The notes under the pieces were generated by a model. That model was given only the letters and a program-made list of their open reading frames with translations, made no database searches and was not told the origin of the DNA. A stretch of DNA of 64,000 nt, from positions 1 to 64,000 of the forward strand of contig CABYCY010000003.1 in assembly GCA_902517615.1 (NCBI GenBank). Direction: 5' to 3'. Positions within the stretch are counted from its first letter, which is position 1, and each line of letters begins with the position of its first letter. This DNA is from an uncultured Pelagibacteraceae bacterium. GTDB lineage: Bacteria > Pseudomonadota > Alphaproteobacteria > Pelagibacterales > Pelagibacteraceae. Shown piece after piece: positions 24,534 through 45,515 of this stretch. Made by a program: the position numbers and the translations under genes.

Positions 24534-25130
24534 GTGAATTTGATAATTAAATCTCTCCTGTTTTTTTTTAATTTACTAGAGAAAGTAAATACTTTTTTTC
24601 TAAGGATTGGTAGACAGTTTGCATGGATAGCCATGTTTTTAATGGTTGTTGTTATCATGGTTCAGGTATTTTTTAGATATGTATTGAATAATGCATTGCC
24701 ATGGCCAGATGAAGTTGCCAGATTTTTGATGTTATGGATGACAGGATTAATAGCTCCTTCTGCATACAGATGGGGAGGATTTGTTTCTATAGATATCTTA
24801 GAAAGATATTTACCAAAACTTATTTCTACCTTTTTAACTTTATTTTTATTAATAGTCTCACTTTTTGTATTAATAATTGGTTTAGAGTTAGGATTTAAAC
24901 ATATTAATGCCGGGTGGATATTTAGCTCTTCATCAATAAAAATTCCTTTTAATTTAATTGGTGGAAAAGCTGAGCCAATAAAGTTGGCATGGATGTATAT
25001 GTCTCTTCCAGTTGGTATAGTTTTTTTAATATCAGTTAATATTGAACTGATCTTTAGAAACATACTTAATAATTTTATCAAATTAAAGTTACCTGAAGAT
25101 TTTGACAAACAGAAATTGGAGACTCAATAA
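24534..25130 (+). CDS. dctQ: TRAP transporter small permease (DctQ family)
   Basis: A 198-residue protein with about four hydrophobic helices and the DctQ signature VFFRYVLNNALPWPDEVARFLMLWMTG. It links the large permease to the binding protein. The start is GTG 24534, and its final base is the first of dctM. Cytoplasmic membrane. It is first in a dctQ-dctM-dctP order with the binding protein last. Confidence 0.92.
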   Translation: MNLIIKSLLFFFNLLEKVNTFFLRIGRQFAWIAMFLMVVVIMVQVFFRYVLNNALPWPDEVARFLMLWMTGLIAPSAYRWGGFVSIDILERYLPKLISTFLTLFLLIVSLFVLIIGLELGFKHINAGWIFSSSSIKIPFNLIGGKAEPIKLAWMYMSLPVGIVFLISVNIELIFRNILNNFIKLKLPEDFDKQKLETQ

Positions 25131-26419: not shown

Positions 26420-26446
26420 TTTTTATTTTTTTTCAGGTAATAGACT

Positions 26447-26477
26447 CTCGAATTAATTCAAGTATATTCTGTATACA
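26447..26477. promoter_or_regulatory. Two operator-like palindromes upstream of dctP
   Basis: In the 84-base dctM-dctP gap there is an imperfect 16-base palindrome, CTCGAATTAATTCAAG (26447-26462), and a perfect TGTATACA (26470-26477), just before an AGAGAGGG Shine-Dalgarno. GTATAC-centred sites are used by some GntR-type regulators of TRAP systems, but no GntR gene is visible in the window. This may also be a separate dctP promoter region. By eye only. Confidence 0.3.
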
Positions 26478-26503
26478 TAAATATTAAAGAGAGGGAAATA
26501 ATT

Positions 26504-27556
26504 ATGAATAAGTTAATTAAATCATTTTTTTCATTATTATTACTGATTGGATTTACAGCTTCAGTTTCTGCTGCAGATTACAATCTGAGAATGACAATGA
26601 ACTCTAATGATCAAGACGAAGATTATGATGGCGCGGTTGTTTTTAAAAACTACGTTGAAGCAGCATCGAATGGAAAAATTGCTGTAGAACTTTTTGTAGG
26701 TACTCAACTTTGTTCAAAAGGTGCAGAATGTTTACAAGGTGTATCTGATGGAAGTATAGATATTTATATATCTACATCAGGAGGAGCTGCAGGTGTTTTC
26801 CCATACGTTCAGGTTTTAGATTTACCTTATCTAATGGCTAACGACAGAATTGCTGAAGACGTTATGCAAGGTGATTTTGTAAGAACTATGAGAAAAATGG
26901 CACTTAAAGATTCTAATGATTCAATTAGACTGATGACTATTGGTAATACTGGTGGTTGGAGAAATTTTGCAAACACAAAAAGAAGAGTTGCAGAACCATC
27001 TGACATGAAAGGTCTAAAAATTAGAACTGTAGTAGCTGATTTGCCTCAAGAGCTTGTTAAAGCACTGGGCGCATCTCCAACTCCTATTCCTTGGCCTGAA
27101 TTATTTACATCTTTTCAAACAGGTGTAGTTGAAGGTTCAAAAAATGGGATAACTGATATCATGAACATGAAGTTTCCTGATGCAGGTCTTAAATTTGTAA
27201 CATTAGATGGACATGCATATATGGGTGCACTTTGGTGGATGAATAATGCTAAGTATCAATCTATGCCGACAGATCTTAAGAGAGTTGTAACTGATGGATT
27301 TTATGCATTGCAACAAGCAACATTTGCTTCTCCAAAGAGAAAATCAATTAAAGCTTATGAGGATTTTGTAGCTGGTGGTGGAGATTTATATGTTCCGACA
27401 CCTGATCAAAAAGCTAGTTTTAAAAAAGAAGCTAGCCCAGTTTATGATTGGTTTAAGTCAAATGTTAAAGGCGGAGGAGAAATCTTTAACGCTTTAACTA
27501 GTGCAGTTGCCGATGCAGAGAAAAGTGCATCTAGTGCATATAAAAAAGACTTATAA
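26504..27556 (+). CDS. dctP: TRAP transporter solute-binding protein (DctP family)
   Basis: A 350-residue periplasmic binding protein. The signal peptide is roughly residues 1-24 (SLLLLIGFTASVSAADYN). TIGNTGGWRNFANTKRRV followed by the PSDMKGLKIRTV stretch contains the arginine that pairs with substrate carboxylates, and ALGASPTPIPWPELFTSFQTGVVEG is the family hallmark. The ligand is therefore probably an organic acid such as a sugar acid, keto acid or hydroxy acid. A strong AGAGAGGG ribosome site precedes it. Confidence 0.94.
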   Translation: MNKLIKSFFSLLLLIGFTASVSAADYNLRMTMNSNDQDEDYDGAVVFKNYVEAASNGKIAVELFVGTQLCSKGAECLQGVSDGSIDIYISTSGGAAGVFPYVQVLDLPYLMANDRIAEDVMQGDFVRTMRKMALKDSNDSIRLMTIGNTGGWRNFANTKRRVAEPSDMKGLKIRTVVADLPQELVKALGASPTPIPWPELFTSFQTGVVEGSKNGITDIMNMKFPDAGLKFVTLDGHAYMGALWWMNNAKYQSMPTDLKRVVTDGFYALQQATFASPKRKSIKAYEDFVAGGGDLYVPTPDQKASFKKEASPVYDWFKSNVKGGGEIFNALTSAVADAEKSASSAYKKDL

Positions 27557-27574
27557 TTTTAAATAAATTTTAAT

Positions 27575-27596
27575 GGGGCGGATTTTAATTCGCCCT
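27575..27596. terminator. Stem-loop between convergent dctP and the Sel1 gene
   Basis: The arms GGGCGGA (27576-27582) and TTCGCCC (27589-27595) pair with one G-T and a six-base loop. It is GC-rich in an otherwise AT-rich gap between two converging genes. There is no long T-tract on either strand, so it is a weak or bidirectional terminator or an mRNA end stabiliser. Confidence 0.5.
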
Positions 27597-27597
27597 G

Positions 27598-28068
27598 TTA
27601 TCTAAAAGGATAAATCCAAGATTTGTAATCTTTTATGAGTATATGAGCTTTTTCAATTTGTTCAGGGGTCATTTTCTTAATAACTTCTTCCTGAGAAATT
27701 GCGGCATCAGGGTCTCCACCTATAGCAGACAAGCCATACCACATGTAAGCTCGAACAAGATCAGGAGCAGGAAGTCCCCTTCCAATTTCATAGTACCATC
27801 CAACTCCAGATTGAGCACCAGGATGACCTTTCATGGAAGATCTAAGATACCACTCAAAAGCTCTAACATCATCTCTTTCAACTCCAAGACCCATGGCATA
27901 CATAATTCCAATAAGCTCTTCTGCATCGGCATTACCAGATCTAGCTGCTGGCATAAGTTCTTCCATGGCTTCTTTAAATTTTCCTTTTTCCATCAAATCT
28001 CGAGCATTTTCTATTTCAGCAAAAACAATAGAAGGGATAAAAAAAATTATAAAAATATACTTAATCAT
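27598..28068 (-). CDS. Secreted Sel1-repeat protein
   Basis: A 156-residue protein with a signal peptide (MIKYIFIIFFIPSIVFAE) and three Sel1-like helical repeats: ADAEELIGIMYAMGLGVERD, AFEWYLRSSMKGHPGAQSGVGWYYEIGRG and AYMWYGLSAIGGDPDA. Sel1 repeats bind proteins; the role here is unknown. It is back-to-back with the di-haem peroxidase gene, its ATG ending exactly where that gene's signal-peptide frame begins. Confidence 0.85.
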   Translation of the reverse strand: MIKYIFIIFFIPSIVFAEIENARDLMEKGKFKEAMEELMPAARSGNADAEELIGIMYAMGLGVERDDVRAFEWYLRSSMKGHPGAQSGVGWYYEIGRGLPAPDLVRAYMWYGLSAIGGDPDAAISQEEVIKKMTPEQIEKAHILIKDYKSWIYPFR

Positions 28069-29406
28069 TTAAAAATTATTTTATTTATAGTTCCATTTTT
28101 AATTTCAGTAAATAAAACATACGCAACAGAATTACCAAAAGCATTAAAGAGTGATGATTTCCATGAAGTTGATATGGAAAAAGTTAAAATCGGTAGACTT
28201 TTGTTTCATGATAAAATTTTATCTGCAAATCGAAATATTGCTTGCGCAACATGTCATAGCCATGATTTAGGTGGCTCAGATGGACTTTCATTAGGTATTG
28301 GTGAAGGAGGTCAAGGAATAGGGCTAGAAAGAACCGCAGGTAAGGGAGATGATAAAATAAAAAAACGAATACCAAGAAATGCTCTAGCCTTATGGAATTT
28401 AGGATTTAAAGACATAACTACTTTGTTACATGATGGTAGAGTAACTAAATCAAATATATTTGGTAATGGTTTTAATACACCTGCTCAAGAAGCGCTTCCT
28501 AAAGGACTGGATAATATAGTTGCAGTTCAAGCTTTATTTCCAATGACTAGACAATTTGAGATGGCAGGAAATCCAGGTGAAAATGAAATTATAGGTTTAG
28601 TCTCAAAAGTTGGAAAAGATAGTATGAGAATCGATAGAGTTTGGCCTGTAATCACGCACAGAATTAGAGGTGTTCCTGAGTATGTTGAGTTATTTAAAAA
28701 TGCTTTTGATAATGTGGATAGTGCTTTAGATATTAACATTACACATATAGTAAACTCGATTGCAGCGTTTGAAATTCATGAATGGACATCATTTGACTCT
28801 CCTTTCGATGAATATTTGAATGGTGATAAACAAGCATTAACCTTAGATCAAATAAAAGGAATGAATTTATTTTATGGAAAAGCAAATTGTAGTTCTTGTC
28901 ATTCCGGATCTTTATTGTCAGATCAAAAGTTTCATTCAGTAGGAATTCCACAGTTTGGACCTGGAAGAACTAGACCATTTGACCCTTATGCACGTGATGT
29001 AGGGCGTATGGTTGAAACAGATAATATTAATGACATGTATAAATTTAAAACTCCAGCATTAAGAAATGTATCTTTAACAGCACCTTATGGTCATAACGGT
29101 GCCTACCCAACACTTAAAGGAATAGTAAAGCATCATTTAAATCCAATTAAAATGAATAAAAATTGGAAGCCGGCATATGCAAATTTACCAAATGCTCCTT
29201 GGTTGGAACAGATCGATTTTGTAACTTTTTCAGATAAAAGAGAACAGGATAGAATATTATCAAGTATAAATATTCAGCCCATAGATTTAAGCGAGGAAGA
29301 AGTGGACCAATTAGTTTTATTTCTAGAATCTTTAACTGGCCGAAGTGGAAATCAAAGACCACTTGGCAAACCAAATAAAGTTCCAAGTGGATTAACAATT
29401 GATTAA
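28069..29406 (+). CDS. Di-haem cytochrome c peroxidase/MauG-family protein, start codon unclear
   Basis: A periplasmic c-type cytochrome of the CCP/MauG family. Two haem sites are visible, CATCH at about residues 59-63 and CSSCH at 274-278, plus the family's TPALRNVSLTAPYGHNGAYPTL. The frame encodes a convincing signal peptide (KIILFIVPFLISVNKTYA), but no ATG, GTG or TTG lies before it until the frame is deep in antisense of the Sel1 gene. The codon at the expected start (28069) is TTA, and ATT 28075 is the nearest rare-start candidate. The first in-frame ATG (28174) would remove the signal and so is unlikely. It may reduce H2O2 or oxidise a small molecule. Confidence 0.8.
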   Translation, partial: LKIILFIVPFLISVNKTYATELPKALKSDDFHEVDMEKVKIGRLLFHDKILSANRNIACATCHSHDLGGSDGLSLGIGEGGQGIGLERTAGKGDDKIKKRIPRNALALWNLGFKDITTLLHDGRVTKSNIFGNGFNTPAQEALPKGLDNIVAVQALFPMTRQFEMAGNPGENEIIGLVSKVGKDSMRIDRVWPVITHRIRGVPEYVELFKNAFDNVDSALDINITHIVNSIAAFEIHEWTSFDSPFDEYLNGDKQALTLDQIKGMNLFYGKANCSSCHSGSLLSDQKFHSVGIPQFGPGRTRPFDPYARDVGRMVETDNINDMYKFKTPALRNVSLTAPYGHNGAYPTLKGIVKHHLNPIKMNKNWKPAYANLPNAPWLEQIDFVTFSDKREQDRILSSINIQPIDLSEEEVDQLVLFLESLTGRSGNQRPLGKPNKVPSGLTID

Positions 29407-29435
29407 TTTTATAAATTAAACTGATACAACATATT

Positions 29436-30518
29436 ATGAGAAAAATAAAATATGGAATTATTGGAGCTGGAACAATGGCCCGTGAACATATTTTAAATAT
29501 ATCGTTAATAAATAATGCAGAAGTAGTTGCACTTTCAGATCCAAATGAAGATTCATTAAATCTAAGTAAAGAAATTTTAAAAAAAAATATATCTTGTTTT
29601 AAAAGTCATTTAGAAATGATTGAGGAAAATATTGTAGATGTATATTTAATTTCTTCTCCTAATTTTACACATTTAGAAATTTTAAAAGATGTTATTAAAA
29701 CCAAGAAACATATACTTGTTGAAAAACCCTTATGCACTAATACAAAGGATTGTTTAGAAATAAAAAAACTTACAAAAAATTATCCATCAGTTTTCTGGAC
29801 TGCAATGGAATATAGATATATGCCACCTGTTGCAAAATTTATTAATGAAATTCATAATAAGACAATTGGTGACTTGAAAACATTAACTATCAGAGAACAC
29901 AGATTTCCTTTTTTGAAAAAGGTAAATGATTGGAACCGTTTTGAAAAAAATACTGGAGGCACACTTGTTGAAAAATGCTGTCATTTCTTTGATTTAATGC
30001 GCTTAATAATTGGCAGTAAACCAGTTAGTGTTTATGCAAGTGGCGGACAAGATGTTAATCATCTTGATGAGCAGTATAATGGCAAAAAACCAGACATAAT
30101 TGATAATGCGTATGTCATAGTAAATTTTGAAAATGGAGCAAGAAGTTTACTTGAGCTTTGTATGTTTGCAGAAAATTCAGACATGCAAGAGGAGCTTGTT
30201 GCGACAGGAAATAAAGGAAAAATAGAAACTTCAGTTCCATCAAATGAGTCAGGTAAAACTTCATCAAATCTAAGAATTGGAATGAGAGATGGAAAAACAA
30301 CTAATGAGAAGATAGATGTTGATAAAAAAATAATTGAGGCTGGTCATCATCATGGATCTACTTACTATGAACACCTAGCTTTTTTAAAAGCTATTGAAAG
30401 CACTTCAGCTCCTGAGGTTTCATTAGAAGATGGGTTGATTGCAGTTGCAGTAGGAGAGGCTGCAGAAAAATCGATAAAAGAACGTAGATTGATAAACTTA
30501 GAGGAAATAATTAGTTAA
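29436..30518 (+). CDS. Gfo/Idh/MocA-family oxidoreductase
   Basis: A 360-residue sugar/cyclitol dehydrogenase-type protein. The Rossmann motif is GIIGAGTMAREH, the catalytic-region LVEKPLCTN is intact, and GGTLVEKCCHFFDLMRLIIGSKPVSVYASG is the C-terminal domain core. It is 29 bases after the peroxidase on the same strand and could be co-transcribed. Substrate unknown. Confidence 0.86.
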   Translation: MRKIKYGIIGAGTMAREHILNISLINNAEVVALSDPNEDSLNLSKEILKKNISCFKSHLEMIEENIVDVYLISSPNFTHLEILKDVIKTKKHILVEKPLCTNTKDCLEIKKLTKNYPSVFWTAMEYRYMPPVAKFINEIHNKTIGDLKTLTIREHRFPFLKKVNDWNRFEKNTGGTLVEKCCHFFDLMRLIIGSKPVSVYASGGQDVNHLDEQYNGKKPDIIDNAYVIVNFENGARSLLELCMFAENSDMQEELVATGNKGKIETSVPSNESGKTSSNLRIGMRDGKTTNEKIDVDKKIIEAGHHHGSTYYEHLAFLKAIESTSAPEVSLEDGLIAVAVGEAAEKSIKERRLINLEEIIS

Positions 30519-31434
30519 AAAAATCTATAGTTTTTTTAACTATAAAATCACTTACCCTAATATTTGACTCTGTAGTAACACCAGAGATATGTGGTGTTAA
30601 AATACAATTCATATCTGGTTTTATTTTATTATAAAATTCACTTTTTATTGGTTCGTTTTCAAAAACATCAAGAGCAAATCCCGAGACTGTATTTTCATGA
30701 TAAGCTTCAATTAAATCATTTTCATTTATTATGCTTCCTCTAGAAGTATTTATGATAATCGGTTTATTTTTCATTTTAGAAAAAGAAGATTTATTTATAA
30801 TATTTTTTGTTTCTTCTGTTAAAGGAAGGTGAATAGAGATAATATCTGATTTTTCAAATATCTCATTTAAATTTGATAGTTTAGCATCAATTTCTTTATC
30901 ATTTATCTCTTTAATATACGGATCATAGGCTAAAACATTTAAACCGTTTTTTAGACTATACTCTGCAACTTTTTTCCCTATTGTTCCAAAACCTATTATG
31001 CCTAAACACTTTTGATTTATTTCAGAAGACTTTATTGTTGTTCTTGGCCATTCACCTTTTATAGTTCCACCATGAAACATAGGGATCTTTTTTATAAGCG
31101 ATAAAGATGAAGACAAAACATACTCGGCAACAGAATCAGCATTCATACCTGTAGCAGGCTGTACATGGATATTTTCATTTTTGCAATATTCTGTATCGAT
31201 GTTATCTAACCCCACACCCAGCCTTCCAATAAATTTTAAGTTAGATGCATTTTTCAATATATCTGAATTTACCTGAGTTTTATTTCTTACAATTAACACA
31301 TCATAGTCTTTAATTATTTTTTCTATTTCTATTTTATTTTCACATAACTTTTCATCGTATTTAACATCAAATTTTTTATTTAAATTTTCTAAACTATTTT
31401 GATTGATAAACTCTGTAATTAAAATTTTAGTCAT
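30511..31434 (-). CDS. D-isomer-specific 2-hydroxyacid dehydrogenase
   Basis: A 307-residue NAD-dependent enzyme. The nucleotide motif is IIGFGTIGKKVAEYS, catalytic Arg is in INTSRGSIINENDL, Glu in DVFENEPIK and His in LTPHISGVT. There is no ACT domain. It is last in a four-gene minus-strand run (PanE-like, 2OG oxygenase, PhyH, this gene). It may reduce or oxidise a 2-hydroxy acid produced by that run. Confidence 0.86.
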   Translation of the reverse strand: MTKILITEFINQNSLENLNKKFDVKYDEKLCENKIEIEKIIKDYDVLIVRNKTQVNSDILKNASNLKFIGRLGVGLDNIDTEYCKNENIHVQPATGMNADSVAEYVLSSSLSLIKKIPMFHGGTIKGEWPRTTIKSSEINQKCLGIIGFGTIGKKVAEYSLKNGLNVLAYDPYIKEINDKEIDAKLSNLNEIFEKSDIISIHLPLTEETKNIINKSSFSKMKNKPIIINTSRGSIINENDLIEAYHENTVSGFALDVFENEPIKSEFYNKIKPDMNCILTPHISGVTTESNIRVSDFIVKKTIDFFN

Positions 31435-31448
31435 TAATTTTTTAAATA

Positions 31449-32432
31449 TTAAACTAAATTAGACAAGTCTCTTTTATTATTCTTATACGTTGGTAGTGGA
31501 TATTTAAAGGCATATTTTCTAGGAATACATTTTTCTTTTGCCTTTTCCCATAGAGATAACCATTGTTTAAAATTTTGTACTTTAAGATTTTTTTTATTTC
31601 TACTTCTAACATAAAAGTTGGGCAGCGGCTCTCTTCCTGACGGTTGACCAGCAACATTATATCTTAGATCTGCACTTATTCTAAAATCGTTAGATCGATT
31701 TGGTAAAGAACAGTGGATTGAATATTTATGCAGCAATATTACATCACCAACGTTTGCCTCCAAGTAAATGTGATCCATATCGTCAAGTAATTTACTATTT
31801 TTTAACTCTACTTGTCCTCTGTATCCTGGCACATGATTTAACAATCCCATTTTGTTAATTTTTTTTACAGTGATCATGCATCCATTTTTTTTGGTAGTTT
31901 TAGTAAAAGGAATCCAAACAGTAACCATATCAGTTAATTTTTGACCTTTTGAATTTAATACCGCTGCATCTTGATGCCATGGAGTTCTGCCGCTTAAACC
32001 ATCATGAATTGATCCTTTTGGTAATTTTTTTTCAGGTTGTTTTATTCTAGTATTTTGAACAGGGTTAGACATTATTTCTTTTCCTAAAATTTTTTCAACA
32101 ACGTCTAAAATTTTTTTATTAGTAATTAAATTCCATAATGATTGAGTAGCAAAATAATCACTATCTTTTTTTACGTGGTCTCTTGGTAATCTTGTATTAA
32201 AATACTGATCCAGATCATAAATATTAAGTTTTGAAATAAAAGAATATTTTTTTCTAAAGTCTAAGTTTAAAGCTTTTTTAACATCTCTTTTTTTTGCATA
32301 TTTTTGAATAAGACAGTCCATGACAAAATCCATATCATTAAGAACAGGCTTTAGGTCTCTTCTAAAGTTAAGTACATTTTTAATTATTAAGTATCCATTC
32401 TCGAATAATTTTTTTTGAAGATTATTTGTCAT
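31449..32432 (-). CDS. Phytanoyl-CoA dioxygenase-family Fe(II)/2OG oxygenase
   Basis: A 327-residue PhyH-family enzyme. Iron ligands H153-x-D155 (PWHQDAAVL) and H240 (YSIHCSLPN) are present, with the MVTVWIPFTKTTKKNGCM sheet and a SADLRYN arginine. It is longer than the PhyH at 19.5 kb, with an N-terminal helical extension. The ends lie within 14-31 bases of its operon partners. The substrate is unknown; PhyH relatives act on alkyl-CoAs, phosphonates, amino acids and alkaloids. Confidence 0.86.
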   Translation of the reverse strand: MTNNLQKKLFENGYLIIKNVLNFRRDLKPVLNDMDFVMDCLIQKYAKKRDVKKALNLDFRKKYSFISKLNIYDLDQYFNTRLPRDHVKKDSDYFATQSLWNLITNKKILDVVEKILGKEIMSNPVQNTRIKQPEKKLPKGSIHDGLSGRTPWHQDAAVLNSKGQKLTDMVTVWIPFTKTTKKNGCMITVKKINKMGLLNHVPGYRGQVELKNSKLLDDMDHIYLEANVGDVILLHKYSIHCSLPNRSNDFRISADLRYNVAGQPSGREPLPNFYVRSRNKKNLKVQNFKQWLSLWEKAKEKCIPRKYAFKYPLPTYKNNKRDLSNLV

Positions 32433-32463
32433 TATTTAAATTTAGTTTAACATGAAGACAATT

Positions 32464-33333
32464 TCAATACTTCGGTGCTGTAGTTAAATAGTTTGCGTCA
32501 TGAAATGATGTTAACATTCTTTTTTTAGTGCTAATTATATGGGGATAATATGAGATACCTTTGTAATTCCATACAACTGGTTTATTTAAAGCGTAACTAC
32601 CATAAATAAAAAAACGTTTAGGACAATTTCTTTCTACAAACCGTTTAACTCCATGATAGGAATTTGGAGTAGATTGAAAAAAAACAACAGTTCCTTTTTT
32701 AGGAGTAAAAGATTTAACTATCTCCAGCTCACTTATTTTTGGGAATCTTCTAAAACTTTTTCTTAGATTTTTTTTTGCTTTTTTTCTATAGATAGTAAGC
32801 GAGCCACCATTTCTTTTTGGTATATCGGTTAAATAAATTAAGAAATTGTACAATCTTGTTATATCATCTCTATGGGGTCTTAATCTATATCCTCCTTTTG
32901 ATACTGAAAAGTCAATATCTAAATTTACTTTTGGGTTAGTATAATTATTACCTAGTATTTTTTTTAATTCATTAGAATTTAATTTTTTTTTAATAGTAAA
33001 CTTTTTAGGATTAAAAGATTTAGGTTTATATAAATTTATCCATGATCCATTTTTAAAATTTTTTATAAAAAGACTTTCAATTTTTTTATAAACAGACTTG
33101 CTATTAAATAGTTTAAAAATCTTCGCAGAATTTAGTGAATTTTTGATATATAAATTAAAATTTTTTGAGCCTTTGTTAATCCTGCTTCTACCTCCCATAA
33201 TCATATCATCAAATGATTTAGAGTTACTAATTTCTTTAATTAATAAATTACAAATATTTTTAGAAACAACGTTATTTCCAACTAAAACAGGAAAGTTACT
33301 TTTAATCTTTTTTAATTTATTTGTACTTAGCAT
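32464..33333 (-). CDS. 2OG-Fe(II) oxygenase, prolyl-hydroxylase-like
   Basis: A 289-residue protein with the double-stranded beta-helix ligand set H154-R-D156 (RLRPHRDDITRLYNFLIYLTD) and H227 (NSYHGVKRF), followed by a KRFFIYGSY strand. NGGSLTIYRKK is typical of the P4H-like 2OG-Fe(II) superfamily. It abuts the PanE-like gene, so the two are coupled. The mixture of two different oxygenase families in one operon is notable. Substrate unknown. Confidence 0.8.
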   Translation of the reverse strand: MLSTNKLKKIKSNFPVLVGNNVVSKNICNLLIKEISNSKSFDDMIMGGRSRINKGSKNFNLYIKNSLNSAKIFKLFNSKSVYKKIESLFIKNFKNGSWINLYKPKSFNPKKFTIKKKLNSNELKKILGNNYTNPKVNLDIDFSVSKGGYRLRPHRDDITRLYNFLIYLTDIPKRNGGSLTIYRKKAKKNLRKSFRRFPKISELEIVKSFTPKKGTVVFFQSTPNSYHGVKRFVERNCPKRFFIYGSYALNKPVVWNYKGISYYPHIISTKKRMLTSFHDANYLTTAPKY

Positions 33334-34278
33334 TTAGCTGTACATACCTTCTTTCACTTTAATCATTTTATACATAAGATCATTTAAAGGTGTCTTAATT
33401 CCATGTTTTTTACCTATTTTTGATACTGCGCCACTAATAAAGTCAATTTCAGTTTTTCTCTTATATTGAACATCAAAAGCCATTGATGATTTGTTAGTTT
33501 GCATTGAATCTACAATTTTATTAAACATAAATAAGCACTCATCTTCAGAAACATTTACACCATCAGCAAGTGCAACCTCTCTGGTTTCTAAAATAATTTC
33601 TTTACCCAGTCCTCTAGAAACTTCGTTAGCTTTATTGTTTACATATAGGTCAGTATGATGAAGATCAAAAATTGCTGATAATGGTCCAATTGCAGTTAAA
33701 GCAAAAAGTTTCATCCATTTTCTTTTCTTCACATCTTCTGCTGCAATCATTTCAAGATTATGAGCAGTAAAAGTATTTGCTATTTCTTTAATTCGATCTG
33801 TAATACCTCCTTCGTATTCACCAATCCAGGATGGTAATGAACCATGATTCATTATATGTCCAGGCCCTAATATATTTGAAGCTTGAGTTGTAGTTCCTCC
33901 AATTACTTTTTCATTACCAACAATACCTTGAATAATTGCTTCATGACCAATGCCATTTTGAAAAGACATGAATACCGTTTTATCTCCGATTATATTTTTA
34001 ATACTATTTAATGCTGGCTCTAAGGCAGTGGCTTTACACATTACAATTACTGCATCTACTTTGTCTAACGATGATGGATCTGAAGTGGCTTTAACTTTAA
34101 TTATTCTATCTCCACCATGCCCATCCATTTTCAAACCATCTTTATTAATTGCATCTACATGTTCTTTCCAAACATCAATTAAAATTACATTTAAACCTTT
34201 TTCAGCAAGCAAACCGCCAAATAAACAACCCATCGCTCCTGCACCAAGCACTGCTACTTTCAAATCTTTATTAATCAT
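33334..34278 (-). CDS. Ketopantoate reductase-like (PanE/ApbA family)
   Basis: A 314-residue NADP-dependent reductase. The N-terminal motif is VLGAGAMGCLFGGLLAEKG. The family's VIVMCKATALEPALNSI, SFQNGIGHEAIIQ and C-terminal GVNVSEDECLFMF regions and a KRKTEIDFISGAVSK substrate-site stretch are present. Housekeeping PanE makes pantoate, but here it heads an operon with two oxygenases and a hydroxyacid dehydrogenase, so it is more likely a catabolic 2-oxo-acid reductase. Confidence 0.85.
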   Translation of the reverse strand: MINKDLKVAVLGAGAMGCLFGGLLAEKGLNVILIDVWKEHVDAINKDGLKMDGHGGDRIIKVKATSDPSSLDKVDAVIVMCKATALEPALNSIKNIIGDKTVFMSFQNGIGHEAIIQGIVGNEKVIGGTTTQASNILGPGHIMNHGSLPSWIGEYEGGITDRIKEIANTFTAHNLEMIAAEDVKKRKWMKLFALTAIGPLSAIFDLHHTDLYVNNKANEVSRGLGKEIILETREVALADGVNVSEDECLFMFNKIVDSMQTNKSSMAFDVQYKRKTEIDFISGAVSKIGKKHGIKTPLNDLMYKMIKVKEGMYS

Positions 34279-34366
34279 CGTTACCTTTATTCAAATTATT
34301 TATGTATAGAAATTATATATATTATCTATAGACATTATGCAAAATAAATTATAGCTTAATCACAAC

Positions 34367-35344
34367 ATGCAATTAAAAATAGAAAAAGGAACTTTTAAGG
34401 AATATTCATTAGAAAATATTTCAGATGCCCTAAGAAAAGGATTATCTGAAAATTTCAAAACTGTTGAAGCTAAAATAGTAGATTGCCCTAATCTTAGAGA
34501 TTGGGATTGTCCCGCAGAAGGAATAAGCGGAAATCAAAAAATTATAGATGTTGGTGGAGAACCTTATATGCATGATCCAAAATTTATTGGTGCAGAGTTT
34601 GACTATCAAGAAATATCTAAAATGATAGATTCTGAAAAATCTTATGCCTTAGGAGCTGGATCAGGCGCAATGACTTGTTTAGACGGTCACTGTGGAGAAT
34701 TAGTAATTAATGAAAATTTGATTACTGACGAGTCTAGATCAATAATAGCAAGAGTAAGTCCTGATAAGAAGTGCATTGTTGAAAAATATACAGCAAAAAA
34801 GCATGGAGGACTTGGAAACATTTATTATACCGATGGTAAACAAGGTAAAGTAATTAAAATAAAAATTAAAGGGAGAATTGGAAAACAAGGTTCTCTACCA
34901 CAAGCGATGAGATTCTCTTTATCAAAAAATTTAAAAATTAATGATAATCAGCATATGTCTCTAGCAGGTGTATTTAGGATCCTAAATGGAAAGATAAGAT
35001 CGCACGTGCAACCTGATTATAAAGATATAAAAAATGAGTACTATGATCCAAAACAGATGAAATGTATAAAAGATTTTCTTCAATTTTATGAACCTGTTGG
35101 ACCAAAGTTGCAATGCTATACAGTTCTTTGGACTGGAGATCCAACTGGTGGAAATTTAAATTTGAGAGAGTCTGGTGAACATACACACTTTCATTCTTAT
35201 GAGCATGATAGGGATGCTGGTCACTATCATTTTGATGTAACACCTGATGAAATAGAATACGAAGGATATTTTAATACTGCAACTGAGGTACATAGAGTAA
35301 ACAACATTTATAAAGAACTATTAAGCAAAAATACTATTGAATAG
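34367..35344 (+). CDS. DUF1907 protein (C11orf54/PTD012-like)
   Basis: A 325-residue protein with the DUF1907 signatures GAGSGAMTCLDGHCGELVIN (residues ~97-115) and a C-terminal His cluster H272, H274, H276, H280, H286, H288. In the human relative PTD012, histidines in this region bind zinc. The biological role of the family is not established, though ester hydrolase activity has been reported for the human protein. The gene is divergent from the PanE-like operon and precedes a MarR-like gene by 28 bases. Confidence 0.8.
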   Translation: MQLKIEKGTFKEYSLENISDALRKGLSENFKTVEAKIVDCPNLRDWDCPAEGISGNQKIIDVGGEPYMHDPKFIGAEFDYQEISKMIDSEKSYALGAGSGAMTCLDGHCGELVINENLITDESRSIIARVSPDKKCIVEKYTAKKHGGLGNIYYTDGKQGKVIKIKIKGRIGKQGSLPQAMRFSLSKNLKINDNQHMSLAGVFRILNGKIRSHVQPDYKDIKNEYYDPKQMKCIKDFLQFYEPVGPKLQCYTVLWTGDPTGGNLNLRESGEHTHFHSYEHDRDAGHYHFDVTPDEIEYEGYFNTATEVHRVNNIYKELLSKNTIE

Positions 35345-35372
35345 GAAACTCAATGAGTTTAAATTTATTTAA

Positions 35373-35786
35373 ATGAAAAGACAGTTCAAGTATCCCAAGC
35401 ACTTTGAAGAACAAAAAAAAATACCAAAACTAACTCAAAAAAGAATTCAATTAGCAGAAATATCACTTGGAGATTTTGAAGGAAGATTAGCCAATGAATT
35501 ACTCAATTGGTTTTCTTTAACACCACAACATTGGATAATGCTGCATATGGTTATGCTTGCTTATTATAAAAATAAATCAATTACGAAAAACCAATTACTT
35601 AAAGTAATTGAGAAATCATATTTAACTTCAAACGTTTATATAGATACAGCAATTAAAAAAGGATATTTTAGAATAATTAGGAATGAGAAAGATAAAAGGT
35701 CTATTTTTATTTTACCGTCAGTTATTACGATAAAAACATTTGAAGGGTTTATTGACAGGAGAGATATTCTTTACAAAGGTATTTAA
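35373..35786 (+). CDS. MarR-like winged-helix protein
   Basis: A 137-residue protein with a predicted winged helix-turn-helix in the second half: SITKNQLLKVIEKSYLTSNVYIDTAIKKGYF as the recognition region and IRNEKDKRSIFILPS as the wing with the D-x-R motif of MarR proteins. The N-terminal basic stretch is less conserved. Position next to the DUF1907 gene and divergent/convergent catabolic operons makes it a candidate local regulator. It is the only plausible one within the catabolic region. Confidence 0.65.
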   Translation: MKRQFKYPKHFEEQKKIPKLTQKRIQLAEISLGDFEGRLANELLNWFSLTPQHWIMLHMVMLAYYKNKSITKNQLLKVIEKSYLTSNVYIDTAIKKGYFRIIRNEKDKRSIFILPSVITIKTFEGFIDRRDILYKGI

Positions 35787-36574
35787 TAAGTACCAGTTTC
35801 TTCTTTCTTTACAGAGCCTTTCATTTTATCTACTACAGATTTTGCACCAGCACTTAAAGCCCTTAAATCAGAAGCAATAGTTACAAAATTAAAACCTTTT
35901 TCTATCATCTTTGTTGCATATTCTGGAGTTCCATTATGAATACCTGCAAAAATATTATTTTTTTTAGCATGCTCTAAAATCCTTAAAATTTCAGAGTAAG
36001 CTTTTGTATTTTCTGGTCGATCAAATCCTGGTTTTTCTCCAATTGCTAAACTTAAATCAGCTGGACCAATATAAATACCATCAACACCAGGTGTAGACAT
36101 AATTTCATCTAGCTTGCCTAGTGACTCTTCAGTTTCAATCATAGCTAATTTAAGAATTTCATCATTAGCATGTTCTGCATAATCAGAACCTCCATAAATT
36201 AAACCTCTTATTGGGCCAAAACTTCTATAACCATTAGGTGGATACATACATGCCTGAACAAATTTTTCAGCTTCCTCTTTATTACTAACCATTGGACAAA
36301 CTACACCGTAACAACCTGCGTCTAAAATCTTCATTATTTGCCCTGGTTCATTCCAATTTACTCTAGCTAAAGGGGTTACATCAGTTGTAGAAATAGTTTG
36401 GAGCATTGGAAGTGCGTTACTATAATCTATTAAACCATGTTGCATATCGATTGTTAATGAGTCCCAACCTTGATGAGCCATAGCTTCAACAGAAGCTGTA
36501 CTTGGTATGGCGCACCAACCATTTATTACAGGTTTCCCTGCTTTCATCATTTCTTTTATTTTATTTTTTCTCAC
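35783..36574 (-). CDS. HpcH/HpaI-family aldolase
   Basis: A 263-residue class II pyruvate aldolase fold that cleaves or forms 4-hydroxy-2-oxo acids. DMQHGLIDYSNALPML, the R-V-N-W strand, CPMVSNKEEAEKFV, YPPNGYRSFGPIRG and MIETEESLGKLDEI...GPADLSLAIG hold the metal and substrate residues. The start is two bases after the aldehyde dehydrogenase, so the aldehyde product could be handed straight to that enzyme. Substrate is inferred only at class level. Confidence 0.9.
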   Translation of the reverse strand: MRKNKIKEMMKAGKPVINGWCAIPSTASVEAMAHQGWDSLTIDMQHGLIDYSNALPMLQTISTTDVTPLARVNWNEPGQIMKILDAGCYGVVCPMVSNKEEAEKFVQACMYPPNGYRSFGPIRGLIYGGSDYAEHANDEILKLAMIETEESLGKLDEIMSTPGVDGIYIGPADLSLAIGEKPGFDRPENTKAYSEILRILEHAKKNNIFAGIHNGTPEYATKMIEKGFNFVTIASDLRALSAGAKSVVDKMKGSVKKEETGTY

Positions 36575-36576
36575 AA

Positions 36577-38019
36577 TTAGATTTTTAAACCCATGTGCGT
36601 GTATTTTACATTTAGGTAATCTTTGATTGCACCAGAACCACCTTCACGTCCATAACCAGTTTGTTTTATTCCTCCAAACGGTGCTTCCGCAAGGGCAACT
36701 ACCCCTGTATTAACCGCAACACATCCAGTTTCTAGCTTTTCAGATCCTATATGAGCTTTATCCATTGAATTTGTATAAAGATAGCTACATAAACCTAAGT
36801 CGTTGTCATTAGCTCTTTCTATAACTTCATCAAAATTTTTAAATGTTAAAATTGGAACTAGTGGACCAAAAGGTTCTTCCTTCATAATAGTAAAATTATC
36901 TTTTACATCATCAAATACAGTTGGTTCGTAATAGTATCCTTTATTGAAACCAGAAGGTCTTTTTCCTCCCATTAATACTTTAGCACCTTCAGCTTTTGTA
37001 GTTTCGACTAATTTTTCTATTTCTTCCAATCTTTTCGCTGTAGTCATAGGACCTAGATCGACACCATCATCCATACCATTGCCAATTTTTAATTTTTTTG
37101 CTCTTTCTATGAAAGCATCAACAAATTCATCTTTTCTATTTTCTTGAATATAAAATCTATTTGGTGAAATACAAACTTGACCATTATTTCTAAATTTACC
37201 AGTTATAGCTATATCAGCTACTTTGTTAATATCTACATCTTCACATACTATAAAAGGAGAGTGTCCACTAAGCTCCATAGTAACTCTTTGAACTTTATCA
37301 GCTGCTTTTTTTAAAATAATTTTACCAACTCTTGTTGATCCAGTAACCGAAACTTTTTTAATTATATCTGACTCCATTAATTCATTTGATATTTCAGCAG
37401 GATCACCTGATAAAAGATTTACAACACCATCTGGAACTCCTGCTTCTTTGCAAATATTTACCAATTCCATTACTGCACCAGGAGTAATAACATCTGGTTT
37501 ACAAATTACTGAACATCCTGCGGCCAAAGAGGTTGAAATTTTTCTTGATGCTAAAGTTATAGGGAAATTCCAGGGAACCAAAGCAGCAACAACTCCTACT
37601 GGCTGATAGTAGACATGAACTCTAGTATCTGGAAATCTGCTTTCAACAGTTTGACCATAGATTCTTTTTGTCTCTTCTGCATTCCATTCAAAAATATCTG
37701 CGCTACCACCAACTTCTCCAACTGCTTCTGTAAGTGGTTTACCTACTTCAAGAGTCAACCATTTTGCAAGAACATCTTTTTTTTCTCTCATTAGATCTGC
37801 AATTTTTCTAAGTATGTATGCTCTTTGCCAAGGGGGGGTATTTTTCCAAACTTGCAAACCTTTTTCTGCAGATTTTAATGCTTTCTGCACTTCAATAGAT
37901 GAAGCTTTTGAGGCTTTTCCTATTACTTCCTCGGTTGCAGGATTAATTACATCGTAAGTTTCTTTTTTTTCAGCTTGTTGCCATTTACCATCAATGAATT
38001 GTCCAAATTTTTCGTACAT
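36577..38019 (-). CDS. NAD(P)-dependent aldehyde dehydrogenase (succinate-semialdehyde DH-like)
   Basis: A 480-residue ALDH. The NAD-binding VPWNFPITLASRKISTSLAAGCSVICKP, the catalytic Glu in VTMELSGHSPFIV and the catalytic Cys in FRNNGQVCISPNRFY are intact, and the C-terminus reads AEAPFGGIKQTGYGREGG. It resembles the GabD/succinate-semialdehyde or glycolaldehyde/lactaldehyde group. It lacks features of the CoA-acylating IolA, so it does not complete the inositol route. Co-transcribed with the aldolase. Confidence 0.92.
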   Translation of the reverse strand: MYEKFGQFIDGKWQQAEKKETYDVINPATEEVIGKASKASSIEVQKALKSAEKGLQVWKNTPPWQRAYILRKIADLMREKKDVLAKWLTLEVGKPLTEAVGEVGGSADIFEWNAEETKRIYGQTVESRFPDTRVHVYYQPVGVVAALVPWNFPITLASRKISTSLAAGCSVICKPDVITPGAVMELVNICKEAGVPDGVVNLLSGDPAEISNELMESDIIKKVSVTGSTRVGKIILKKAADKVQRVTMELSGHSPFIVCEDVDINKVADIAITGKFRNNGQVCISPNRFYIQENRKDEFVDAFIERAKKLKIGNGMDDGVDLGPMTTAKRLEEIEKLVETTKAEGAKVLMGGKRPSGFNKGYYYEPTVFDDVKDNFTIMKEEPFGPLVPILTFKNFDEVIERANDNDLGLCSYLYTNSMDKAHIGSEKLETGCVAVNTGVVALAEAPFGGIKQTGYGREGGSGAIKDYLNVKYTHMGLKI

Positions 38020-38109
38020 AGAATTTATATTTAGTTTACTTAATTAGGTTTTTTAATTTATAATTAATTATATATAAACATTATACTCAATCAAAGTTAA
38101 AGTTAATTG

Positions 38110-39954
38110 ATGAAAAAAATTACACTTACCTGCGCACATGCAATTGTTAAATATTTAATTGCTCAAAAGATATTAATAAATGGTAAAAAAGAACCTTTGT
38201 TTCCAGGAGTATTTGGAATTTTTGGCCATGGAAACGTAGCTTGTTTAGGGCAAGCTCTAGAGGAAAACCAAAAAGAACTACCTACATACAGGGGACATCA
38301 TGAGCAAAATATGGCTCTTACAGGAATTGGTTATGCTAGAGCAAAAAGAAGACAGCAAATTTTTGTAGCAACATCCTCTGTTGGACCTGGTGCAACAAAT
38401 ATGGTTACTGCTGCAGCAGTTGCTATGAGCAATAGGTTGCCTATTTTATTTTTACCTGGTGACACTTATGCAAACAGAATGCCAGATCCAGTTTTGCAAC
38501 AAGTTGAGCATTTTAACAATCCTGGAATAACAGCTAACGATGCATTTAAACCTGTTACTAGATATTTTGATCGTATAACTAGACCAGAACAGATTATTCA
38601 ATCATTCCCAGTAGCAGTTCAAACGATGTTAGATCCTGCAGACTGTGGTCCGGCATGTATCGCTTTAAGCCAAGATATACAAGGTCAAACTTTTGATTAT
38701 CCCGAAGAATTTTTTAGAGAAAGGGTGCACGCGATTAGAAGACCAAGACCAGATGAATTCCAAATTAAAGAGGCAGCAGAAAAAATTAAGTCATCTAAAA
38801 ATCCTATTATAATTTCAGGTGGTGGAGTTTTTTACTCAGATGCAATGGAAGAGTTAAGTCAGTTCGCAACTAAACATAACATACCAGTCACTCAAACTGT
38901 AATGGGATATTCTACATTGAAAAGAGATCATTCTCATTTTGCTGGTCAGATAGGTGGTTTAGGTGGAAAAAATACAAATACTTTAGCAAAAGAAACCGAC
39001 TTAGCAATTGCAGTTGGAACTAAACTTGCAGATTTTACAACTGGTTCATGGGCAAATTTTGAAAACGAAAATTTTAAACTTGTTTCAATAAATGTATCAA
39101 GATTTGATGCTAACAAACATTTAGCTCAAGCTGTCATTGGGGATGCTAAAGTTTCATTAACTGAGCTTTCACAAGCATTAGGTAGCTGGAAAGCAGGAGA
39201 TGAATGGAATAAAAAATCTCAAACTGAGCTAAAATTATGGAATGAACATATAGATAAAGAGAGTGCGCCAACAAATCAAGAAGTTCCAAGTTATGTTCAG
39301 GTAATTGGTGCAATTTATAGAAACTCTGAACCAACAGATATCGCTGTTACTGCAGCAGGAGGTTTGGTAGGTGAAGTAGTTCAAGTTTGGAGACCTAGAG
39401 AATTAAATACTCATGAGACTGAGTGGGGCTTTAGTTGTATGAGTTATGAAATTTCAGGAGCGCTTGGAATAAAAATGGCTAATCCAGATAAAGAAGTAAT
39501 TTCTTTTGTAGGAGATGGTTCTTATCTTTTAAATAACACAGATATTTATTCATCAGTTATTACAAAAAATAAATTGATAATTATAGTTTGTGATAATGGT
39601 GGGTTTGCAGTTATCAATCGACTTCAATTATTCAAAGGCGGTAAAGAATATAACAACTTATTAAAGAGTTCTAATACCCCTGGATTAGTTGATGTTGATT
39701 TCGCAAAACATGCAGAAAGTATGGGAGCTAAATCTGAACATGTTAATTCAATTTCAGATCTTGAAGCTGCATTTAAGAGAGCAAAAGCTTCTGACGTAAC
39801 GTATGTTATTTCAATAAAAACTCATGCTTATAAGTGGGTTGAAGGTTCAGCATTTTGGGACAGCCCAACACTAGAAATTCCTAAAACTAAAGAAAATGAA
39901 GAGGCTTTAAAACTTTATAAAGAAGGAAAAGGCAAACAAAGACAAGGTGTATAA
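38110..39954 (+). CDS. iolD: Trihydroxycyclohexane-1,2-dione hydrolase IolD
   Basis: ThDP-dependent ring-opening enzyme of inositol catabolism. I start at ATG 38110 (614 residues); a TTG three bases earlier is also in frame. Catalytic Glu65 is in RGHHEQNMALTG. The GIFGHGNVACLGQAL, FLPGDTYANRMPDPVLQQVEH and FKPVTRYFDRITRPEQI stretches are IolD-specific, and GDGSYLLNNTDIYSS with CDNGG binds ThDP-Mg. It heads a long plus-strand run (to 47.2 kb) that includes the ribose-type ABC transporter. It is about 15 kb from iolE. Confidence 0.95.
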   Translation: MKKITLTCAHAIVKYLIAQKILINGKKEPLFPGVFGIFGHGNVACLGQALEENQKELPTYRGHHEQNMALTGIGYARAKRRQQIFVATSSVGPGATNMVTAAAVAMSNRLPILFLPGDTYANRMPDPVLQQVEHFNNPGITANDAFKPVTRYFDRITRPEQIIQSFPVAVQTMLDPADCGPACIALSQDIQGQTFDYPEEFFRERVHAIRRPRPDEFQIKEAAEKIKSSKNPIIISGGGVFYSDAMEELSQFATKHNIPVTQTVMGYSTLKRDHSHFAGQIGGLGGKNTNTLAKETDLAIAVGTKLADFTTGSWANFENENFKLVSINVSRFDANKHLAQAVIGDAKVSLTELSQALGSWKAGDEWNKKSQTELKLWNEHIDKESAPTNQEVPSYVQVIGAIYRNSEPTDIAVTAAGGLVGEVVQVWRPRELNTHETEWGFSCMSYEISGALGIKMANPDKEVISFVGDGSYLLNNTDIYSSVITKNKLIIIVCDNGGFAVINRLQLFKGGKEYNNLLKSSNTPGLVDVDFAKHAESMGAKSEHVNSISDLEAAFKRAKASDVTYVISIKTHAYKWVEGSAFWDSPTLEIPKTKENEEALKLYKEGKGKQRQGV

Positions 39955-39960
39955 ACCTTT

Positions 39961-41118
39961 ATGAGTAAAATTTTTAAAGTCGGTCTAATTGGCTGTGGTC
40001 ATATTTCAGAAACTTATTTTAGAGCCCAGGAGTACTTTAATAATATTAGAATAGTTAAATGTGCAGACATAAATATAGATGCTGCTAAAAAATGTGCAAT
40101 TCACTATAATATTGAAGCTGTAACCGTAGAAGAACTTTTAAAAGACAAAGAAATTGAAATTATTTTAAATCTAACAATACCAGGAGCACATTATGAGGTT
40201 TCTAAAATGGCTATTGAAAATGGAAAACATTCTTATGCTGAAAAACCATTAGCAATAAATTTTGAGGATGGAAAAAAAATAATTGAACTTGCTAAAGAAA
40301 AAAACCTCTACATTGGAAATGCTCCAGATACTTTTTTAGGTGGAGGTATTCAAAAAACTAGAGAGTTAATTGACAATGGTGTCATTGGGGATATTAAATT
40401 AGGTAACGCAATCTTTGCTTTTCCAGGTGTACAATCTTATCATCCAAATCCAGAGCCATGGTTTGTGGAAAATGAAGGTGGACCCGTTATTGATATGGGA
40501 CCATACTATTTAACAGCATTAGTAAATTTAATTGGTCCAGCAAAACAAGTGCAAGGAAGATGTACAAAAGTTTTTGAAGAAAGAGAAATTGGAATTGGTC
40601 CAAAAAAAGGTAAAAAATTTAAAGTCAAAACTCCTACAACTTACTTAGCAACCATACAATTTGAAAATGATTGCATTATTCAAATAACTTTATCTTTTGA
40701 TGTAGTGGCACATCAAAGAAATCATATTGAGCTTTATGGAAACAAAGGATCAATAATTGTTCCAGATCCAAATATGTTTGGTGGATCTGCTTTTGTATCA
40801 GTTACCACTGGTGGTAATTGGGGAGAACATAAAACAGATATGATGCCTTTAGGAAAAATTAATATAAAAAGTCAAAGCTCTAGGGCAAATGAATCACCTA
40901 CCAATGCAAATTATAGAGGAGTTGGTTTATCAGAAATGGCTTATGCAATTGAAAATAATTTAGAGCATAGATGTAGTGGAGAATTGTCTCTTCATGTTTT
41001 AGATATAATTGACTCAACTATGAGAGCCTCGCAAACAGGAACCCCACAAGAAATAAAGACAAGCTGTAAAAAACCAAAACCTTTTTCTTTAGAAGAAATA
41101 AAAAAAATAATGAATTAA
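39961..41118 (+). CDS. Gfo/Idh/MocA-family oxidoreductase
   Basis: A 385-residue dehydrogenase-type protein with Rossmann motif GLIGCGHISETYF, SYAEKPLAINFEDG and a C-terminal core GGPVIDMGPYYLTALVNLIGPAKQVQG. It starts six bases after iolD, so it is co-transcribed with it. Close to IolX/IolW-like or other cyclitol dehydrogenases in architecture, but no residue fixes the substrate. A role in oxidising an inositol isomer or its product is plausible. Confidence 0.87.
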   Translation: MSKIFKVGLIGCGHISETYFRAQEYFNNIRIVKCADINIDAAKKCAIHYNIEAVTVEELLKDKEIEIILNLTIPGAHYEVSKMAIENGKHSYAEKPLAINFEDGKKIIELAKEKNLYIGNAPDTFLGGGIQKTRELIDNGVIGDIKLGNAIFAFPGVQSYHPNPEPWFVENEGGPVIDMGPYYLTALVNLIGPAKQVQGRCTKVFEEREIGIGPKKGKKFKVKTPTTYLATIQFENDCIIQITLSFDVVAHQRNHIELYGNKGSIIVPDPNMFGGSAFVSVTTGGNWGEHKTDMMPLGKINIKSQSSRANESPTNANYRGVGLSEMAYAIENNLEHRCSGELSLHVLDIIDSTMRASQTGTPQEIKTSCKKPKPFSLEEIKKIMN

Positions 41119-43942: not shown

Positions 43943-44054
43943 TTACACGCTGTAGTTGATTTAATAGCGATTCTTAGAACTATTATAAGGTATTGAATTT
44001 TAATCAAAAATTATATTAAATTTATTTTTTAAAAACTAAATAGGGAAATAATAA

Positions 44055-44978: not shown

Positions 44979-44996
44979 TCGATAGATATATAATTT

Positions 44997-45034: not shown

Positions 45035-45051
45035 ATGTAATATAATAATTT

Positions 45052-45513: not shown

Positions 45514-45515
45514 AA

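Follow-up and report, generated by a model that had tools for sequence, protein, structure and literature searches.

Gene content of the locus

The stretch analysed here (the window) comprises 64,000 nucleotides, positions 1 to 64,000 of contig CABYCY010000003.1 (assembly GCA_902517615.1), from an uncultured Pelagibacteraceae bacterium of the SAR11 order Pelagibacterales, whose genome amounts to 1.32 Mb in 37 contigs and is 91.3% complete. An earlier note made from the sequence alone (the original prediction) had gathered eight neighbouring open reading frames (ORFs) of this window into one undescribed catabolic pathway: those of a PanE-like reductase, two oxygenases, a D-2-hydroxyacid dehydrogenase, a DUF1907 protein, a MarR-like regulator, an aldehyde dehydrogenase (ALDH) and an HpaI-family aldolase. 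All eight ORFs are present where they had been placed, and seven of the labels are backed by Pfam matches above cut-off; the regulator exists as an ORF, but its label is weak, being a sub-threshold SarA/Rot match (Table 1). The genes are parts of three modules and not of one pathway. The prediction had also overlooked iolD, iolE and iolG. The gene order of the locus is conserved in relatives, and the same locus is carried by single-cell records from Pelagibacteraceae.

The window holds an inositol cluster that has been opened up by inserts. Three members of the canonical inositol pathway, IolG, IolE and IolD, are encoded, all of them over their NCBIfam equivalog cut-offs. The iolD gene is divergent from the ALDH gene, with its start 87 bp away; iolE and iolG lie 12-15 kb upstream, and a further D-2-hydroxyacid dehydrogenase gene, designated DHDH0, adjoins iolE. 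ALDH, aldolase and DHDH0 (together, the triad) are encoded on the same strand with the other two modules between them, and their operon is thus taken to have been split by insertion. None of the three enzymes is named by an equivalog. The best NCBIfam match of ALDH is succinate-semialdehyde dehydrogenase (SSADH; TIGR01780, 499.1 bits against a cut-off of 646.35), and its best match in the PDB is 3JZ4, an E. coli-type SSADH. DHDH0 reached no NCBIfam equivalog cut-off, and the aldolase falls below those of the HpaI 4-hydroxy-2-oxoheptanedioate aldolase (TIGR02311, 170.4 versus 368.8), GarL (TIGR03239, 141.6 versus 406.75) and RhmA (NF007521, 99.9 versus 441). Motifs that we take to be catalytic are present in both DHDH0 and ALDH.

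Table 1. Features of the inositol cluster and of the modules lodged in it (window coordinates)
Feature	Position	Strand	Match
iolG, inositol 2-dehydrogenase	20392..21405	-	TIGR04380, 367.5 bits (cut-off 355)
iolE, myo-inosose-2 dehydratase	22567..23463	+	TIGR04379, 413.2 bits (cut-off 290)
DHDH0, D-2-hydroxyacid dehydrogenase; proposed 5-deoxyglucarate 2-dehydrogenase	23458..24423	-	best PDB 1WWK, 188.5 bits
Third block: TRAP dctQMP, TPR gene (- strand), cytochrome c peroxidase, GFO1	24534..30518	+	ORFs
D-2-hydroxyacid dehydrogenase	30511..31434	-	PF02826 (2-Hacid_dh_C), 172.6 bits
PhyH-type 2-oxoglutarate (2OG) oxygenase	31449..32432	-	PF05721, 63.6 bits
P4H-like 2OG-Fe(II) oxygenase	32464..33333	-	PF13640 (2OG-FeII_Oxy_3), 42.8 bits
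PanE/ApbA-like reductase	33334..34278	-	ApbA, 137.7 bits, and ApbA_C; TIGR00745, 237.5 (cut-off 141.35)
DUF1907 protein, relative of human C11orf54/PTD012	34367..35344	+	PF08925, 200.8 bits
Small MarR/SarA-like regulator (weak label)	35373..35786	+	PF22381, 20.5 bits (cut-off 27)
HpaI-family class II aldolase; proposed 3,4-dihydroxy-2-oxoadipate aldolase	35783..36574	-	PF03328, 108.2 bits (cut-off 25)
ALDH; proposed 5-deoxyglucuronate dehydrogenase	36577..38019	-	PF00171, 541.4 bits
iolD, trihydroxycyclohexanedione hydrolase	38107..39954	+	TIGR04377, 802.3 bits (cut-off 715)
GFO2, Gfo/Idh/MocA oxidoreductase	39961..41118	+	PF01408 and PF22725

The separation into modules became apparent from two sets of SAR11 loci. 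DUF1907 occurs in 61 of the 297 Pelagibacterales genomes searched, and about 20 kb around the gene were compared in 58 of these, the window's own genome and two in which the gene sits on a short contig (3.5 or 7 kb) being left out; genes were counted at no less than 50% identity and 50% coverage. The second set consisted of 20 further SAR11 iolD neighbourhoods, 17 of them from genomes without a DUF1907 match. Within the window's genus (g1), the two modules adjoin each other in almost all of the 38 full-length loci, as would be expected if the oxygenases hydroxylated an acid whose breakdown the aldolase and ALDH complete: PanE and HpaI were counted in 38 loci, P4H, PhyH and ALDH in 37, iolD in 36, a PanB-like gene in 35 and DHDH0 in 19, and the gaps that were checked belong to loci running into contig ends (L056, L057, L089). 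A single pathway of all eight genes is nevertheless highly improbable and was rejected, as each module is found without the other. The nine full-length loci of genus g5, another SAR11 genus with DUF1907, carry PanE (9), PhyH (9), P4H (8) and the PanB-like gene (8), with no iolD, HpaI or ALDH, and in the three of genus g6, likewise from SAR11, only PanE and DUF1907 are kept. Conversely, in the 20 iolD neighbourhoods ALDH (20) and HpaI (19) adjoin iolD and the oxygenases are absent. The oxygenase/PanE/DUF1907/PanB unit is therefore independent of iolD. Co-occurrence in other genomes is strong, as the prediction had anticipated, but it concerns two separate units; the aldolase and ALDH do form the functional pair that it had proposed.

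Association of the aldolase and its partners with iolD

Eighty of the 297 SAR11 genomes, each with a completeness of 90% or more, were compared for the aldolase: 40 with and 40 without iolD, picked in listing order, with genomes whose iolD was partial or at a contig edge excluded. An HpaI orthologue (68-95% identity) was present in 40/40 of the former and 0/40 of the latter, five of which contained only relatives of 29-36% identity. The corresponding Fisher value of 1.9e-23 overstates independence, because the genomes are related; iolD presence varies within the genus. In 38 of the 40 the aldolase gene lies on the iolD contig at a distance of 1504-1557 bp, i.e., the length of an ALDH gene. GFO2, like ALDH, adjoins iolD in all 20 neighbourhoods, and in the one genome where HpaI does not (G034) it was located on another contig. 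DHDH0 was detected in 14 of the 20 stretches. In the single-contig genome G003 (locus L171), ALDH, HpaI and DHDH0 follow one another in the same direction, 1 and 6 bp apart, and are divergently oriented to iolD and GFO2.

The canonical lower steps were sought in 20 SAR11 genomes that bear iolD, of which 18 have a completeness of 90% or more. IolB (5-deoxyglucuronate isomerase, PF04962) was found in none of the 20, nor in the window's own genome, with 6 of 14 control genomes positive. IolC (TIGR04382) was over its cut-off in none of the 20, and weak, sub-threshold matches to PfkB-type kinases occurred in 19. Methylmalonate-semialdehyde dehydrogenase (IolA-type, TIGR01722) was over cut-off in five of six SAR11 genomes, including the window's own, where it is encoded at C4, outside the inositol cluster.

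Beyond SAR11, IolD was over cut-off in 56 of 385 genomes of a class-level draw, 54 of them non-SAR11 alphaproteobacteria that together provided 57 iolD loci. IolB or IolC lies nearby in 29 of these loci, HpaI in three (L221, L232, L237) and a hydroxyacid dehydrogenase in five (L232, L237, L244, L246, L247); no locus has both sets. In L244, L246 and L247, IolD is 68% identical to that of the window and adjoins the hydroxyacid dehydrogenase only, with HpaI and IolB encoded elsewhere. The HpaI-hydroxyacid dehydrogenase locus of L232 (8818-14425) has no ALDH nearby, and contains short-chain dehydrogenase/reductase (SDR) genes and an amidohydrolase (PF04909); a dehydrogenase and a lactonase could stand in for ALDH there. 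Neither IolB/IolC nor HpaI occurs within about 10 kb of iolD in L194, L196, L207-L211, L213, L216-L220 and L225-L227, and likewise in L229-L231, L233 and L234. Clustering of the ORFs around IolB-less iolD loci revealed no further shared enzyme beyond SDR, Gfo/Idh/MocA oxidoreductase and transporter genes.

Genome-wide, IolB was detected in 33 of the 54 genomes (among them G300, G706, G718, G833 and G992) and in none of the other 21. Absence of IolB beside iolD is thus not always absence from the genome, although several genomes whose iolD locus has neither set also have no IolB anywhere. Close HpaI relatives, defined by a threshold of our own of at least 215 bits, occurred in 75 of 380 non-SAR11 alphaproteobacterial genomes, namely in 13 of 21 with iolD and no IolB, in 9 of 33 with both, and in 53 of 326 without iolD.

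The association is most evident on plasmids, where 60 of 85 iolD records and 60 of 61 HpaI records were compared at the best place per record (a rule that could miss an HpaI gene in a second place; one such case, L282, was recovered). The triad stands in a row, divergent from iolD-iolE, on plasmids of Acidiphilium multivorum, Rhizobium leguminosarum, Qingshengfaniella alkalisoli, Pantoea sp. At-9b, Klebsiella aerogenes and Rhizobium daejeonense. Its members are annotated on these six plasmids as 'NAD-dependent succinate-semialdehyde dehydrogenase', 'aldolase/citrate lyase family protein' and 'hydroxyacid dehydrogenase'. On a Shinella plasmid the triad is 7-8 kb from iolD, and Ruegeria sp. TM1040, Thalassospira marina and Marinovum algicola have kinase and isomerase genes and no triad. 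Among nine plasmid iolD loci with HpaI from named bacteria, the hydroxyacid dehydrogenase adjoins HpaI in all nine (tblastn) and ALDH does so in seven (tblastn) and, by annotation, in an eighth. HpaI was found within 12 kb for 26 of the 27 plasmid IolD proteins most similar to that of the window and for none of the 33 others, among the 60 places listed. A similar division was apparent in an IolD tree of 98 rows (28 SAR11, all 57 class-level and 13 plasmid loci), built by a quick method with a midpoint root, for which the program warned of long branches, L282 among them. All 39 HpaI-linked rows fell in one half (61 rows, 9 of them IolB/IolC-linked); the other half, with 37 rows, contained 24 IolB/IolC-linked and no HpaI-linked ones.

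A candidate lower inositol route

The product of IolD is 5-deoxy-D-glucuronate. From the sequences and gene associations, we consider that the triad beside iolD likely turns this compound into hydroxypyruvate and malonate semialdehyde, with a probability of roughly 0.5. ALDH would oxidise the C1 aldehyde to give 5-deoxyglucarate, and the D-2-hydroxyacid dehydrogenase would oxidise the C2 hydroxyl, for which an (R) configuration was derived, to give 3,4-dihydroxy-2-oxoadipate. The latter is a 4-hydroxy-2-oxo acid and therefore the kind of substrate that HpaI enzymes split; cleavage between C3 and C4 would release hydroxypyruvate and malonate semialdehyde, and the methylmalonate-semialdehyde dehydrogenase encoded elsewhere could convert the semialdehyde into acetyl-CoA. 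Such a route would use every gene of the operon, with no need for phosphorylation, an isomerase, a sugar-phosphate aldolase or a dehydratase.

The closest solved structure to the aldolase is SwHKA of Sphingomonas wittichii (6R62 and others, E 1.1e-58). According to the available text of the study on that enzyme, hydroxypyruvate is bound and converted as a donor, and an aromatic residue replaces the conserved leucine at the donor contact (PMC10099721). The position concerned, F210 of SwHKA, is Leu in GarL and YfaU, and His in 65 of 66 aldolases from the loci examined here. As a signature specific to iolD loci this His was rejected: it is also present in 27 of 28 wider alphaproteobacterial relatives, and in 14 of the 28 a hydroxyacid dehydrogenase gene lies no more than 1.5 kb from HpaI, so that the residue is the mark of a subfamily and not of inositol use.

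The same place in inositol breakdown could be filled by another chemistry, in which 5-deoxyglucarate is dehydrated to 4-hydroxy-2-oxoadipate, the aldolase releases pyruvate and malonate semialdehyde, and the hydroxyacid dehydrogenase acts on another intermediate. HpaI-family aldolases usually give pyruvate as the donor product, as E. coli HpaI does, together with succinic semialdehyde, according to the accessible part of PMC8560999, and the stretches without DHDH0 fit such a variant as well. No dehydratase was recognised, however, among the ORFs of the minimal G003 cluster (read by eye), a 166-aa gene beside iolE gave no Pfam match, and the adjacency of hydroxyacid dehydrogenase and HpaI in all nine plasmid loci, together with their proximity in half of the 28 wider relatives, also speaks against it. 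Dehydration thus appears unlikely.

Several observations weigh against the proposed oxidation by the triad, or limit how far it extends. DHDH0 is absent from 6 of the 20 SAR11 iolD stretches fetched, one of which runs to a contig end, and the counts of close spacing come from related genomes and are not independent. The donor-site His recurs in wider relatives that are mostly not beside iolD. In the class-level set, at least 22 of the 57 iolD loci have neither gene set nearby, and the excess of HpaI in iolD-bearing genomes without IolB over those with IolB reaches only p = 0.02. Furthermore, G300 and G706 have HpaI beside iolD yet IolB elsewhere; in G718, G833 and G992 a hydroxyacid dehydrogenase is beside iolD, HpaI is elsewhere and IolB is present; and a Paracoccus alcaliphilus cluster holds the triad plus iolC and iolB. 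The idea that the triad and IolB/IolC strictly exclude each other was accordingly rejected on the evidence of P. alcaliphilus and, genome-wide, of G300 and G706, and because all three carry both, the triad need not replace IolB and IolC.

The P. alcaliphilus cluster would be equally in place if the triad served, in parallel, a different isomer of inositol or an acid derived from inositol, the canonical steps being performed by unrecognised enzymes. G300 is suggestive in this respect, as two of its three iolD genes are accompanied by IolC and one by the triad; the sub-threshold PfkB-type kinases of 19 of the 20 SAR11 genomes and a ROK kinase near the cluster in several also favour this reading. 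The lack of IolB in all of those 20 genomes, together with the constant presence of HpaI in SAR11 genomes with iolD, argues the other way, and we regard a parallel branch as somewhat less probable still than the dehydration.

If the triad does perform the oxidative cleavage, a broader proposal follows, to which we would give a little less than even odds: a lower half of inositol breakdown that is oxidative and requires neither phosphate nor ATP may be standard in iolD-bearing SAR11, mobile on plasmids of Alpha- and Gammaproteobacteria, and, in SAR11, a source of serine and glycine through hydroxypyruvate. It may have escaped notice since iolB and iolC are the genes by which inositol clusters are identified. 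A 2022 genome survey of such clusters demanded, according to its accessible text, three of iolB, iolC, iolD and iolE (PMC9430895), a rule under which a cluster with only iolD-iolE would go uncounted. Among the matches listed in a search of open-access papers, none linked an HpaI aldolase to inositol clusters, in line with the original prediction, which knew of no named pathway for its gene set; the aldolase/ALDH route was likewise not found described there.

Were the proposal correct, oceanic inositol carbon, and that used by plant-associated bacteria, would take a route invisible to any pathway annotation, one without phosphorylated intermediates and ending in hydroxypyruvate instead of dihydroxyacetone phosphate. 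SAR11 bacteria are reportedly auxotrophic for glycine and serine, as Tripp et al. are said to have described in 2009, and hydroxypyruvate could on that account matter for their growth. A widespread HpaI subfamily would also gain a candidate substrate.

Neighbouring modules and comparison with known systems

The second module is read as a pathway of its own, whose genes have been inserted between those of the triad's hydroxyacid dehydrogenase and aldolase. Its DUF1907 protein has a single PDB match, 1XCR (1.3e-39), to which the His-rich motif is aligned. Human C11orf54, of the same family, was assigned in 2025 as a 3-dehydro-L-gulonate decarboxylase with an acetolactate decarboxylase-like fold, and rotifers carry natural fusions of DUF1907 to a 3-hydroxyacyl-type dehydrogenase domain (PMC12435205). 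The PanE-like dehydrogenase stands beside DUF1907 in 50 of 50 full-length loci from three genera, a pairing that resembles the rotifer fusion; oxidation followed by decarboxylation of a sugar-type acid is therefore proposed. By this analogy, our best guess for the core of the module is that the PanE-like enzyme oxidises the acid and DUF1907 decarboxylates the resulting 3-oxo acid. Through this module, the decarboxylase family newly recognised in humans would be extended to bacteria that abound in the sea.

A role of DUF1907 as a substitute for IolB was considered and rejected: iolD is over its cut-off in 55 of 236 genomes without DUF1907 (and in 53 of 61 with it), and in g5 DUF1907 is located away from iolD. 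Outside Pelagibacterales, DUF1907 was not found in a phylum-level draw, where the only match in 398 genomes was the window's own, and plasmids gave no match; all 80 DUF1907 loci from named organisms belong to Pelagibacteraceae or Candidatus Pelagibacter. In one g6 locus (L068:648-9554), DUF1907 lies divergently to a series of genes that were named by eye as Liv-type transporter, PanE, acyl-CoA synthetase, enoyl-CoA hydratase, enolase-superfamily, CitE-like and Gfo/Idh/MocA genes. The AlphaFold model of the P4H-like protein has a mean pLDDT (predicted local distance difference test score) of 39.7.

Of the 58 relatives, 50 have the PanB-like gene in the neighbourhood of DUF1907, where it was read between the MarR-like and HpaI genes. 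It is missing at the window locus, in which these two genes abut (35783-35786), the rest of the genome not having been searched. Its product falls below the PanB equivalog (TIGR00222, 92.3 versus 207.55), and the positions of D84 and E114 of E. coli PanB, which we presume to be metal ligands, are Ala and Pro. The protein belongs to a distinct subfamily of 1672 proteins at E <=1e-10, also encoded on Bradyrhizobium and Mesorhizobium plasmids.

The third module consists of genes for a tripartite ATP-independent periplasmic (TRAP) transporter, a tetratricopeptide repeat (TPR) protein, a cytochrome c peroxidase and GFO1. GFO1 matches PF02894 (108.4 bits); the other names were read by eye, and the order of the block was seen in relatives. 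The hydroxyacid dehydrogenase at 30511 goes with this peroxidase block: it, GFO1 and the peroxidase were each counted in 10 of the 38 full-length g1 loci. The TRAP, TPR and peroxidase genes (24534-29406) also occur downstream of iolD in Ruegeria sp. TM1040 (L288:15772-19845). On the other side of the cluster, iolD-GFO2 is followed at 42177-46430 by a ribose-type ABC transporter, an RbsD-like protein and a ribokinase (309.7 versus a cut-off of 299.65), a set that adjoins iolD-GFO2 in many, not all, relatives. A PdxA-like gene (47202-48197; 215.1 versus a PdxA cut-off of 290.35) lies next to a tripartite tricarboxylate transporter.

Compared with known systems, the second module shares with human C11orf54/PTD012 the DUF1907 family and the His-rich motif aligned to 1XCR, but its bacterial partners (PanE, the PanB-like protein and two oxygenases) differ from the human ones. 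The inositol module has IolG, IolE, IolD and a methylmalonate-semialdehyde dehydrogenase in common with the canonical pathway (IolG, IolE, IolD, IolB, IolC, IolJ, IolA), and differs from it in that ALDH, HpaI and the hydroxyacid dehydrogenase accompany iolD, whereas searches of the 20 SAR11 genomes yielded neither IolB nor an IolC equivalog. In Thermotoga maritima, inositol is degraded by IolG, IolN, IolM and IolO in a non-phosphorylating pathway that is not known to use IolD; the proposed SAR11 route is presumably similar in being non-phosphorylating, but IolD is central to the SAR11 set. SwHKA, which accepts hydroxypyruvate according to the available text of PMC10099721 and whose structures are the closest to the window's aldolase, has Phe at position 210, where the latter has His. 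Finally, the E. coli D-glucarate/galactarate route (GarD, GarL, GarR, GarK; NC_000913.3 annotation) likewise splits a hexarate by an HpaI-family aldolase, but GarL needs the product of a dehydratase and has the donor-site Leu, and the aldolase of the window remains below the GarL cut-off.

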